Source: Flagellimonas taeanensis
GTDB lineage: Bacteria > Bacteroidota > Bacteroidia > Flavobacteriales > Flavobacteriaceae
Direction of reading: 5' to 3'
Length of the DNA: 64,000 bases
NCBI RefSeq assembly: GCF_003584105.1
Contig: NZ_QXFO01000024.1
Span: 186,001 to 250,000 of the forward strand
The notes beneath the pieces were generated by a model. It did no database searches, was not told where the DNA came from, and saw only the letters and a list, made by a program, of their open reading frames with translations. Of this stretch, positions 11,145-32,118 are shown one piece after another; positions within the stretch are counted from its first letter, which is position 1; each line of letters opens with the position of its first letter. The position numbers and the translations under genes are program-made.

Positions 11145-12350
11145 TCAGCGATCCAGGAAGAGGAAGCCGGTGTATTGCAGGTTGAGGTCGTCCAGGGTGA
11201 CCAGGTAATAATAGATTCCTTCGGGAAGGCCAACGTCCTGGCTCATGACGAAGCTCCCGGTGTTGGAATCACCTCTGAACTCGTTGGTGTAGTTGATTTT
11301 TTCAAAAACCTTTTGGCCCAATCGGTTAAAGATACGCAGGCTGTTGTTGGGCGACTCGTCCATATTGTCAATGACCAGAAAATCGTTCACGCCATCGCCG
11401 TTGGGACTGAGGAAATAGTTGCCCAAGGTAGGGTTGTTCACCGCAAAAGTGTCCGTGGGCAAAGGAATGGTGCCAAAGGTAATGGCCGCATAATCACTGG
11501 GCACAAAGGTTTCCGAGGTCACAAAACCCTCGGTCACATCACCGCTGATGGCGGAATTACCGATGATGACCCATTGGTTGGAAGACTTGCTCCAGCCCAC
11601 CACGATTATCGCCTCCAAAGTAGCATTGGGAATCAGGCCCAAAGCACTTCGGGTGTTCCAGCTGATGGTCGCTTTAGCGGGTACATCGCTCTGAAAGATC
11701 CAAAATTCCCGATTGGTGACGGTGCCGATGTCCCTTACCTTTTCCTCCACATCAAAAGCGCCCGGAACGGACAGGGGTGTGGAAGGGTCCTCGAAAAAAT
11801 AGGCACATACGGCCAGGGGCGTACTGCCCTCCGATTCCATCGTCAAGGTCCGGAGTTGGTGATGATCCCCAACGGGAAACCGAAAAAAGTCGCGGTTGTT
11901 CACGGCGGCAAAGCCGGTGACCTTGGAGTCGTCGTTCTCGCTGGCGGAAAAACCATGCTCCATAAAGTTGAGGTAGACCGTCTGATCATCGGTAGGGGTG
12001 TTCACGTTGCCCTCAATAAAGTTGGCATTGTTTTGCACCTGTACGGGAATATGCAAAAAGATTTCGCTAGTGGCCATAAACTCCACATCCCTGAACGTGG
12101 GGATGGTGTTGCCCCTTACCTGAATGGAACTGTTGCCATAGAAGCCCACCAAGCCTTCGTTCTGCTCAAAGGGGGCATTGTTGGTAAAGTTGGTGTGCAG
12201 GCCCAGGCCACTGTTGGAACCGCCAAAATGTACCCGCATGTTGCCGGCATGGTGCAGGGCGCTTTGCGCCACTGCAAAATGGGCGAACAATAGGAATGCT
12301 ATGAGGTGGAGGGGTTTCAAGATTAAAATGCTATTACAGTGAAATGCCAA
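11145..12350 (-). CDS. Secreted protein with T9SS type B C-terminal sorting domain
   Basis: A 401-residue protein with a Sec signal peptide (cleavage after about residue 28, AVAQ). The last about 90 residues are the gliding-motility-associated / T9SS type B sorting domain (CHU_C), with LSPNGDGVND, IFNRLGQKVFE and PEGIYYYLV, so it should leave the cell by type IX secretion. The middle is beta-rich and unassigned. Its start lies 28 bases inside the upstream gene, which indicates translational coupling and a shared job for the two proteins, probably at the cell surface. Confidence 0.9.
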   Translation of the reverse strand: MAFHCNSILILKPLHLIAFLLFAHFAVAQSALHHAGNMRVHFGGSNSGLGLHTNFTNNAPFEQNEGLVGFYGNSSIQVRGNTIPTFRDVEFMATSEIFLHIPVQVQNNANFIEGNVNTPTDDQTVYLNFMEHGFSASENDDSKVTGFAAVNNRDFFRFPVGDHHQLRTLTMESEGSTPLAVCAYFFEDPSTPLSVPGAFDVEEKVRDIGTVTNREFWIFQSDVPAKATISWNTRSALGLIPNATLEAIIVVGWSKSSNQWVIIGNSAISGDVTEGFVTSETFVPSDYAAITFGTIPLPTDTFAVNNPTLGNYFLSPNGDGVNDFLVIDNMDESPNNSLRIFNRLGQKVFEKINYTNEFRGDSNTGSFVMSQDVGLPEGIYYYLVTLDDLNLQYTGFLFLDR

Positions 12351-13852
12351 TCAGAGTCTGAAAGAGAGGTGCCTTCATAAATTTGTACCTCAAATGAGTT
12401 TGCAGTTTGATTAGTTACTTGAATTGATCTTGCTCCAAGATTACTAGAAGTAGTTAATTGCACTATAAAATCTGACGGTGTTGTGCTTAAAATAATTTCA
12501 TAAGAACCACCTGTGTTATTAGCAAAATTGTTAATTCCAAAATTTGTTCCAAGAGCTCCTGATATGATTTTTCCCATAGCAATAACAGGATTGGTAACCG
12601 TCACATTAAATTCTTGGCCGGAGGGGGTTACTGTGATTCCTTCACCTTCGGTGACAGTTATACCATCCACATAGGCCTTCGTTGCGGCATCCTGAGGGTC
12701 GGTCGGGTCCAGGACATCGGTGATGGCACTGTTGCCCGCACTTGGGTCAATGGCTATCACATCGGCAAGGTTCTGTGCCTCGGTAAATGTACTGTTGATG
12801 ACATATGGAGTGGCGGCGGTTCCGTTTCCGGTGATATTGATGTCGGTTCCATTGTTGAGGATGGTCTCCGACCCATTGGCGGCATTGTTGGTTATCTCGG
12901 TGTCCACATAGGCCTTCGTTGCGGCATCCTGAGGGTCGGTCGGGTCCAGGACATCGGTGATGGCACTGTTGCCCGCACTTGGGTCAATGGCTATCACATC
13001 GGCAAGGTTCTGTGCCTCGGTAAATGTACTGTTGATGACATATGGAGTGGCGGCGGTTCCGTTTCCGGTGATATTGATGTCGGTTCCATTGTTGAGGATG
13101 GTCTCCGACCCATTGGCGGCATTGTTGGTTATCTCGGTGTCCACATAGGCCTTCGTTGCGGCATCTTGTGCTGCGGTTGGGTTTTGCAAATCTTTAATTT
13201 GCTGGTTTCCTGCACTGGGGTCTACAGCAATGACGTCGGCGAGATCCTGAGATTCGGTGATGCTGATATCCGCTTCGTTGATCAGGGTCCATGCGCTGCC
13301 ATTCCATTGGAAAAGGTCGCCATTGGCACCTCCATCTTGCAAATGGGAGAGTCCTACGGATCGAGGGGCCAAATCTTGGCTGCCCACGGAACCGTTTTGG
13401 ATTTTGTCCCCGTTCACTGCCGAAGGGGCAATATTGGCCCCGTTGATGATGCCCACCTCAAAATTATAGTTGATACTGCCGTCCGGGTTGGGCGTTTCCG
13501 TGATCACCACGGTATTGTCCAATGCATTGGGGTTGATCGGCCGCATATGGTCCGCCCGGGTGCTCACCGTAAAGGAATTGTCCAGTTCCTCACAAATGTT
13601 GACCCACTCCGTTCCCGTATAGTAGTGTAGGCAGTCGTGGTCGGTATTATAGACCAACGCACCGCGCAAGGGGGAAATGGCATTCATTTGGAGGTCATTT
13701 ACCCGCGTGATGACGAGCACACGCGAGGTACTTTCCAATTCCAGTACAGAGGAATTGTTGAGGTTTTGTGGATTGTCGCCAATCTTGACCTGTGCGGTCA
13801 GAGTATGGGTCATCAGTAGGGCAATGACCAAGTAGCTAATGTACGTTTTCAC
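12323..13852 (-). CDS. Repetitive secreted fibre-like protein
   Basis: A protein of about 509 residues with a signal peptide (LVIALLMTHTLTAQ). A GTG at 13852 is chosen as start because it puts a lysine next to the hydrophobic core; an ATG at 13888 would add 12 acidic residues in front. After an N-terminal domain (VLELESTSRVLVITRVND) come repeats of about 79 residues with the linker QDAATKAYVDTE, familiar from tail-fibre-like and other trimeric surface proteins. Two repeats are identical in DNA. The C-terminal 90 residues are beta-rich. It probably forms a surface fibre or adhesin; the target is unknown. Confidence 0.82.
   Translation of the reverse strand: MKTYISYLVIALLMTHTLTAQVKIGDNPQNLNNSSVLELESTSRVLVITRVNDLQMNAISPLRGALVYNTDHDCLHYYTGTEWVNICEELDNSFTVSTRADHMRPINPNALDNTVVITETPNPDGSINYNFEVGIINGANIAPSAVNGDKIQNGSVGSQDLAPRSVGLSHLQDGGANGDLFQWNGSAWTLINEADISITESQDLADVIAVDPSAGNQQIKDLQNPTAAQDAATKAYVDTEITNNAANGSETILNNGTDINITGNGTAATPYVINSTFTEAQNLADVIAIDPSAGNSAITDVLDPTDPQDAATKAYVDTEITNNAANGSETILNNGTDINITGNGTAATPYVINSTFTEAQNLADVIAIDPSAGNSAITDVLDPTDPQDAATKAYVDGITVTEGEGITVTPSGQEFNVTVTNPVIAMGKIISGALGTNFGINNFANNTGGSYEIILSTTPSDFIVQLTTSSNLGARSIQVTNQTANSFEVQIYEGTSLSDSDWHFTVIAF
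12666..13165. repeat. Perfect 237-bp tandem duplication inside the fibre gene
   Basis: Units 12666-12902 and 12903-13139 are identical base for base, and identity continues for 26 bases into a third, divergent unit starting at 13140. Each unit encodes 79 residues, so the frame is kept. Absence of even silent differences points to recent duplication or ongoing gene conversion. Confidence 0.95.
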
Positions 13853-13924
13853 AGTGTTAGTATTTGAGGATTCGCTAACGTAATCCACAAAACTAATCTT
13901 ATATCATTATTTTTTGACCATTTC

Positions 13925-14334: not shown

Positions 14335-15075
14335 ATGAAAAATATTCTTTTGGTCGTGTTCTCCTTTCTGTTCTCTGCTACATCGCTGGCACAGGACGAT
14401 CGCCAATTGCTCCGTGGAAAGGTACTGTACCGAAACACCAATGTGCCCAATGAGAACGTGATCAACTCTACCTCGGGCGAGGCCACCATCACCAACGATG
14501 ATGGGGAGTTCACTATTGCGGTGAAAGTGGACGATCAAGTGGTGTTCACGGCGGTGAACTACCAATTGATGGTGGTGAAGATCACCCCGGAGATCTTACA
14601 GAACAACCGATTGGTGGTGGAGGTGACCGAAAAGGTGACCGAACTGGACGAAGTGATCGTGACCCCCGAGAACCAAGAGGGCTTTCTTCGGGTAAAGAAC
14701 GAGGATTTTAAGCAGTTCGACTACGAAATAGACAGGGGCACCGAGGTGGTGAACGTCGCGGAATCGCAAACCGTTCGGGGCATGCAGAACGGCCTCAATT
14801 TTGTAAACATCTTCAAGGCCCTTTTCAAATCCCGCGAAGTGGATGGTCAGGAAAGGGAGCCACTAAAAGTGAGCGAGGTGCTCAGGCATGTGTATGACGA
14901 TGAGTTTTTTGTGGTGGACCTGAAACTTCCGCAGGACAAGATAGATGCCTTTTTGCTCTATTGTGATGATAAGATACCCTCCCAGACCCTTCTCAGAAAG
15001 GATAACGAGTTCCAACTGATTGATTTTCTGGTCACACAGAGCAAGGAGTATTTGGAAACCTTGAATGAGGAATGA
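14335..15075 (+). CDS. Carboxypeptidase-regulatory-like domain protein
   Basis: A 246-residue exported protein with a signal peptide ending near TSLAQ. Residues about 26-100 form a CarboxypepD_reg-like beta-sandwich (LRGKVLYRNTNVPNENV, TNDDGEFTIAV), ending in the LDEVIVTP segment typical of TonB-dependent receptor plug extensions, although no receptor barrel follows. The rest is helical and unassigned. The stop overlaps the ATG of the next gene (ATGA), and the next gene encodes a paralogue, so the two are translationally coupled. Confidence 0.85.
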   Translation: MKNILLVVFSFLFSATSLAQDDRQLLRGKVLYRNTNVPNENVINSTSGEATITNDDGEFTIAVKVDDQVVFTAVNYQLMVVKITPEILQNNRLVVEVTEKVTELDEVIVTPENQEGFLRVKNEDFKQFDYEIDRGTEVVNVAESQTVRGMQNGLNFVNIFKALFKSREVDGQEREPLKVSEVLRHVYDDEFFVVDLKLPQDKIDAFLLYCDDKIPSQTLLRKDNEFQLIDFLVTQSKEYLETLNEE

Positions 15076-31253: not shown

Positions 31254-31290
31254 GAACCTAACAACAACACTATATAAACAAACAACAACT

Positions 31291-32118
31291 ATGGAAACAA
31301 TCAACAATTGGACGAACATTACGTTTGATTCCTTATCGGCCATGGGCAAGGAAATAGCATTGGTTTTTCCCAAGATCATTGGGGCCATTGTAATCATGCT
31401 ACTGGGATGGCTGGTCATTAAAATAGTCCTGTTCCTGTTGGGAAGGATCTTGAGACTGGCCAAGGTGAACCTTCTTAATGATAGGATAAATGGTATGGGG
31501 CTCACAAGCAAAGGTGATTTTAAGATCGATGTGGCCAAGATTGTCCTCGGCTTTGTCAAATGGCTCTTGATCTTGGTGTTTTTGATCGTGGTCGCAGATA
31601 TCCTCAATTGGCATATCATATCGGTCGAGATTGGTAACCTGTTGCATTACCTGCCCCGTTTCTTCAGTGCACTTGCCTTGCTCATGATCGGGTTCTACAT
31701 TGGGAACTTTGTCAAGAATACCGTAAAGCGGCTGTTCGATTCCCTGGAGTTCGGAGGCAGTCACTTGGTGAGCAACCTATTGTTCTACGTCATTGTCATC
31801 TTTATGTCCGTCACCGCACTCAACCAAGCGGGGGTGGACACCACCATCATCACCAATAATATTACCATGATCATGGGGTCCTTCCTTTTGGCCTTTGCGC
31901 TGGGGGTCGGTCTTGGTTCCAGGGAGATCATTGCGGATATCCTGAGGTCTTTCTATACCCGAAAAACCTATGCGGTAGGGGACATCATTGTGATCGGGGA
32001 TGATGAGGGCACCATAGAATCCATAGACAACAATAGCCTCACTTTGGTCACAGAAAGGGGTAAATTCGTCATCCCGATAAAGGATGTGGTGTCCCAAAAA
32101 GTGGAGATACGCTCCTAA
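31291..32118 (+). CDS. MscS-type mechanosensitive ion channel protein
   Basis: A 275-residue membrane protein with about five hydrophobic helices and a short C-terminal MscS-like beta domain (TYAVGDIIVIGDDEGTIESI). The pore-helix glycines and alanines appear in LLAFALGVGLGSREIIADIL. The ATG at 31291 follows an A-rich leader and gives a normal N-terminal helix. Channels of this kind release solutes on hypo-osmotic shock. It is downstream of an ECF sigma factor, so it may be part of an envelope-stress unit. Confidence 0.88.
   Translation: METINNWTNITFDSLSAMGKEIALVFPKIIGAIVIMLLGWLVIKIVLFLLGRILRLAKVNLLNDRINGMGLTSKGDFKIDVAKIVLGFVKWLLILVFLIVVADILNWHIISVEIGNLLHYLPRFFSALALLMIGFYIGNFVKNTVKRLFDSLEFGGSHLVSNLLFYVIVIFMSVTALNQAGVDTTIITNNITMIMGSFLLAFALGVGLGSREIIADILRSFYTRKTYAVGDIIVIGDDEGTIESIDNNSLTLVTERGKFVIPIKDVVSQKVEIRS

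Follow-up and report, generated by a model that had tools for sequence, protein, structure and literature searches.

On the reverse strand of the window analysed here (the whole of a 64,000-nucleotide stretch of the Flagellimonas taeanensis contig NZ_QXFO01000024.1) lie a gene for a fibre-like protein (12323-13852; 509 residues, with a GTG start and a signal peptide recognised by eye) and, directly downstream, a gene for a 391-residue partner (11145-12320) that has the features of a T9SS substrate. Bacteroidota promoters carry the -7 motif TAnnTTTG, and a putative promoter motif that matches it, TAGTTTTG, stands on the same strand at 13888-13895. Followed in the direction of translation, the fibre comprises a constant N-terminal region (approximately residues 1-205; 13238-13852), a diverged half-unit (residues 191-236; 13145-13282), two 237-bp repeat units (12903-13139 and 12666-12902) and a C-terminal tip, the last 110 residues (12326-12655), which differs between species. 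Taking the start nearest the aligned position as the start codon in each relative, the fibre start (13850-13852 in the window) is GTG in 50 of 51 relatives (L135-L185) and TTG in one; a conserved non-ATG start of this kind is unusual and may tune translation.

The preliminary description of this DNA had reported two base-identical units of 79 residues accompanied by a diverged third. Both TRF (period 237, 2.1 copies, 100% matches) and direct base comparison bear out the first part: 12666-12902 and 12903-13139 are the same at every base, exact identity at an offset of 237 spans 263 bases (12666-12928), and each unit contributes 79 residues (fibre residues 237-315 and 316-394) with QDAATKAY at its C-terminal end. 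The third copy is indeed diverged, but amounts to a half-unit only, placed on the N-terminal side of the exact pair: its last 46 residues agree with the unit at 27 positions (28 of 79 when the whole unit length is compared), and of the 79 residues following the repeats only nine match the unit. The one other TRF array in the window is a 19-base tandem repeat of 2.4 copies at 31263-31307. Among 41 intact fibres (those of 40 relatives plus that of the window), exact direct repeats of at least 24 bases occur in 36, of at least 100 bases in 25 and of at least 200 bases in 10, and for those of at least 40 bases (no more than ten counted per gene) the offset is divisible by three in 142 of 142 cases, so that the exact repeats stay in frame. 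Repeats of at least 24 bases by chance are unlikely, being found in none of 51 partner genes, none of the first 600 bases of the same 41 fibres and none of 820 codon-shuffled fibres. Fibre lengths range from 481 to 1050 residues, and repeat periods vary by species.

The assignment of a T9SS sorting domain to the partner, and to the partner only, has stood up well. A CHU_C type IX sorting domain occupies 11154-11414 (Pfam E 3.6e-25; 88.3 bits, cut-off 27), TIGR04131 just misses its cut-off (34.6 bits vs 35) and the C-terminal domain is of the type B kind; in the fibre, neither Pfam nor NCBIfam models detect a C-terminal sorting domain. Elsewhere the genome contains SprA and 12 PorP/SprF matches, none of them beside the partner. 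The 28-base overlap from which joint assembly of the two proteins had been suggested was, by comparison, abandoned as such a sign: it rests on a start at 12350, which appears misplaced, and a TTG at 12320, two bases after the fibre stop, begins MKPLHLIAFLL. In 34 of 40 relatives free of N gaps, alignment puts the partner start at -4 to +7 bases relative to the fibre stop, so the genes abut and the overlap is unsupported. To judge from these alignments, the TTG at 12320 is most likely the partner start. No Pfam family exceeds its cut-off in the window fibre or in eight relatives. The single-chain model of the fibre is poor (mean pLDDT 41, with the repeat region below 50), and a fold search with it, too poor to interpret, returned no PDB match at E<=0.001. 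That of the partner is moderate (mean pLDDT 61) and likewise had no PDB match at E<=0.001; Foldseek gave a weak match to 8glk_D, the NucA substrate chain of a T9SS complex (E 0.06, probability 1.00). For neither protein did a sequence search of solved structures return a match.

Within the genus Flagellimonas/Allomuricauda (also Muricauda; 71 genomes including the window's), every genome has a match to the fibre and 70 have its N-terminal part, the exception being G001, whose partner contig starts partway through the fibre and whose only N-terminal match is weaker and paralogue-like. The partner matches 69 of the 71 at E<=1e-30, with an orthologue in 66, a count that drops three genomes with a paralogue-level match of 40-42% only (G048, G053 and G055) and two that are matchless (G037 and G038); five genomes have the fibre N-terminus and lack a partner orthologue. 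Fibre and partner share one contig in 52 of the 66 (window included), lie on different contigs in 13 and are broken up in G001. In all 51 of the other one-contig regions the two genes are on one strand, so the pairing whose conservation the preliminary description had proposed to check in relatives is conserved across most of the genus, adjacency included. The upstream gene (14335-15075) served as a control and is on the contig of the fibre N-terminus in 70 of the 70 genomes having it, albeit at a distance from that N-terminus shorter than the fibre itself. Runs of N interrupt 11 of the 51 regions, always in the fibre past residue 200, and most resemble scaffold gaps, though one run, of 1,951 bases, may instead be withheld sequence. 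Interrupted fibre reading frames were considered as phase variation and rejected, since those interrupted or gapped coincide with distal runs of N; with gaps and breaks inside the fibre gene in many assemblies, variation is probably under-recorded. A clustering of contig ends upstream of the partner was also dropped, as ends occur downstream too.

Several further copies of these elements were observed. Extra copies of the repeat unit lie near contig starts (C86 and C3 of G006, C1 and C3 of G016, C1 of G046), and other genes with the unit may accordingly break assemblies as well. Search hits in G003, G005, G013 and G020 place a larger fibre-like reading frame (1306-2490 residues) after the partner, and a second partner further downstream. 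In the window's own genome, a paralogous cluster (L007:6939-10803, on contig C15 of G000) holds a fibre-like protein of approximately 312 residues, two secreted-looking proteins and a second T9SS partner that is 45% identical to that of the window.

In a wider sample of the family, 74 of 299 genomes, from 62 of 236 genera, match the partner model, the window and one congener included. Twenty of the 74 were chosen, favouring those with room upstream, and in 20 of 20 the end of a reading frame falls somewhere from 4 bases inside the partner to 170 bases ahead of its start; an N-terminal motif, written as our own regular expression, is present in 16, absent in one and cut by a contig end in three, and exact repeats of at least 100 bases occur in eight of the 17 uncut frames. 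The window tip has matches in 13 of 397 family genomes and 10 of 237 genera including its own (E<=1e-5), and directly precedes the partner gene in seven of the 11 matching genomes outside the genus.

The ends of the fibre-partner locus are constant and its middle is replaced. F. amoyensis GCL-11 (L140) and F. hadalis MT-229 (L145) are 97% identical on the N-terminal side and 94% on the downstream side, with no blastn match at E<=1e-5 between their distal parts; two species pairs with flanks 95-98% identical have 0% and 16% of the distal part in common. Among the 41 fibres, 11 pairs (not independent, six coming from four species) have both flanks at least 80% identical: ten have at most 16% of the distal part in common, five of these none at all, and the remaining one keeps 77-85%, indicating that a common distal part would have been detected. 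In six of nine pairs inspected, homology restarts no more than 8 bases from the fibre stop; in the other three it does so from 35 bases inside to 55 bases past it, and some of the nine retain short distal matches. The tips are distributed largely without regard to the partner tree. Grouped by single linkage, which may join unlike tips, the last 110 residues form three loose families (24, 9 and 8 members) that require 15 changes on the partner-protein tree vs a shuffled mean of 15.35, 150 of 300 shuffles needing no more. Clustering the N-termini at 65% (40 rows, one singleton dropped) gives groups that require 3 changes vs 17.3, and none of 300 shuffles got down to 3. Tips grouped at the 50% level (37 rows, four singletons dropped) require 22 changes vs 25.5, with 4 of 300 shuffles as low, so a weak tree signal is left in them. 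Tip score is uncorrelated with partner identity (Spearman -0.02; p 0.62, descriptive only because pairs are not independent), vs 0.55 for the N-terminus, and similar tips recur with dissimilar flanks, as in L140 and L177 (tip 76%, N-terminus 60%). In two pairs with partners 96% identical (L141/L142 and L161/L169) the fibre N-termini are only 71% and 63% identical, which suggests that replacement occasionally reaches the constant end as well. A silent cassette store was looked for in the window's own genome and not seen: at E<=1e-5 its only matches to the tip are in contigs C4 and C23, and a search with the whole fibre adds just one paralogue. As far as sequence comparison can tell, the swapping of the whole distal part between species is a more important feature of this locus than variation in repeat length.

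That repeat length may vary within a population had nonetheless been proposed, and part of that proposal now has a counterpart in the assembly itself (28 contigs, 4.09 Mb, stated contamination 5.83%). Contig C4 (179,167 bases) corresponds to positions 117651-297054 of C23, the window's contig, with no mismatch either side of the repeat, and the sole difference is that C4 lacks one 237-bp unit. As C4 falls entirely within the span of C23, it resembles an alternative contig more than a chromosomal duplication; ABC transporter domains, one family with 41 matches and none in C4, yielded no pair resembling a second redundant contig. Reads of both repeat numbers would be the simplest reading, giving two repeat-number alleles in one assembly, although C4 may be an assembly product, and it is with that caveat that the fibre combines highly similar tandem units with variation in their number.

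Exchange of tips is familiar from the tail fibres of phages and R-type pyocins, with which the fibre shares a constant N-terminal part, an exchangeable C-terminal tip and matches to tail-fibre families; unlike them, it is encoded by a chromosomal gene, appears by eye to have a signal peptide, is paired with a T9SS protein and matches no phage record. PHROG tail families match the window fibre (best E 2.5e-14) and seven of eight relatives, the best stretches lying mostly past residue 200, though three relatives each match a family with a best stretch that begins at residue 109-139; in the window fibre, Phage_T7_tail from Pfam falls below its cut-off. The fibre shares distal linker or repeat segments with 32 viral contigs, none of which, as listed, matches residues 1-130, and a search of 50,697 phage records gave no fibre match at E<=1e-5. 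With viral matches that are distal only and a constant chromosomal neighbour upstream, the gene does not have the setting of a phage or prophage genome.

The reading we favour, with a confidence slightly better than even, is that of a T9SS-linked, tail-fibre-like surface fibre diversified by replacement of a distal cassette together with repeat slippage. In these marine bacteria the two genes would form a chromosomal module that displays the fibre on the cell. Being a type B-like T9SS substrate, the partner would rely on one of the PorP/SprF proteins for its passage to the surface, and the constant N-terminal region of the fibre would dock to it, directly or with others. The repeats would make up a presumably trimeric shaft, holding the C-terminal tip outward, where it may bind a ligand. 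Recombination would replace shaft and tip as one segment, bounded on one side by the constant N-terminal part and on the other by the constant partner gene; in-frame units would be gained or lost by slippage or unequal recombination, thereby changing shaft length. The weakest step is the passage across the outer membrane of a fibre that has no sorting domain.

Two alternatives bear on how the variation arises. Very fast evolution of the distal part in place, with no exchange, would agree with the rapid turnover of repeats and with periods unlike between species, but would have to leave little or no nucleotide match beside flanks that are 95-98% identical, and like tips recur across species whose flanks are unlike, as in the pair L140 and L177; we regard it as quite improbable. 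The difference between C4 and C23 could, for its part, be a product of assembly rather than a polymorphism, an explanation that concerns only the variation within this assembly: C4 has no unique flank outside the span of C23, and tandem repeats are hard to assemble, as the runs of N in 11 of 51 relatives attest. Against this, the repeat is the only difference across 179 kb, as expected had reads of two repeat numbers split the assembly, and an artefact seems to us somewhat unlikely.

The remaining alternatives concern what the fibre is and where it goes. An origin as the tail fibre gene of a prophage, whole or remnant, would account for the tail-fibre families that match distal segments and for the linker and repeat segments common to the 32 viral contigs, yet the uncovered residues 1-130, the empty search of phage records, the same upstream neighbour in 70 of 70 genus genomes having it and a T9SS substrate as the downstream neighbour make this highly improbable, and it was rejected as the main reading. 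It is a more serious, if still unlikely, proposition that display of the fibre does not run by way of the partner at all, and that the fibre is exported or retained alone with the genes merely co-transcribed. In favour are the missing sorting domain of the fibre and the five of the 71 genus genomes that have the fibre N-terminus without a partner orthologue; the tight spacing of the pair in 34 of 40 gap-free relatives and its persistence in other genera speak against it, and we retain display of the fibre by way of its partner as the preferred reading.

Such a surface fibre would have several partial counterparts among known systems. Periscope Proteins are length-variable surface repeat proteins with near-identical tandem units (PMC8201768), and the fibre resembles them in having such units and a length that varies by repeat number. 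It differs in orientation, with its constant end N-terminal and its variable tip C-terminal where the Periscope Proteins described there carry their ligand domain at the N-terminus and are attached to the wall by the C-terminus (PMC8201768), in that the entire distal part is also replaced, and in that its surface location is only predicted. Fibrillar adhesins likewise combine stalk repeats with a presumed adhesive end (PMC8286594); unlike them, the window fibre and its eight relatives have no known adhesive or stalk domain at the Pfam cut-off. The partner is similar to three orphan substrates of F. johnsoniae, type B substrates reported with PorP/SprF shuttles, in having a type B-like sorting domain and no adjoining PorP/SprF gene (PMC12618676, PMC9143113). 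Unlike those, it is preceded by a fibre gene with no sorting domain, and the accessible sections of these two papers describe no such fibre-substrate pair. Among the top listings of a partial open-licence library, no account was found of a chromosomal T9SS-linked pair with both tip exchange and repeat variation.

A wider interpretation, which we put forward only tentatively and with appreciably less confidence than the model of the locus itself, is that of a family-wide recognition system, in which shaft modules resembling those of tail fibres make up a T9SS-anchored fibre, its tip alleles pass between species as exchangeable cassettes and are selected for diversity, and slippage tunes shaft length within a population; selection might come, for example, from escape from phages or from recognition of kin, partners or surfaces. 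For the T9SS, the locus would raise the question of whether a protein with no sorting domain can reach the surface by way of a partner that has one. If our model is true, many Flavobacteriaceae would hold one fixed chromosomal slot for a surface fibre, whose tip and length would change independently of the neighbouring genes. A fixed slot with a changing tip would make selection on the cell surface testable, whether imposed by phages, by neighbours or by the surfaces of algae and particles.
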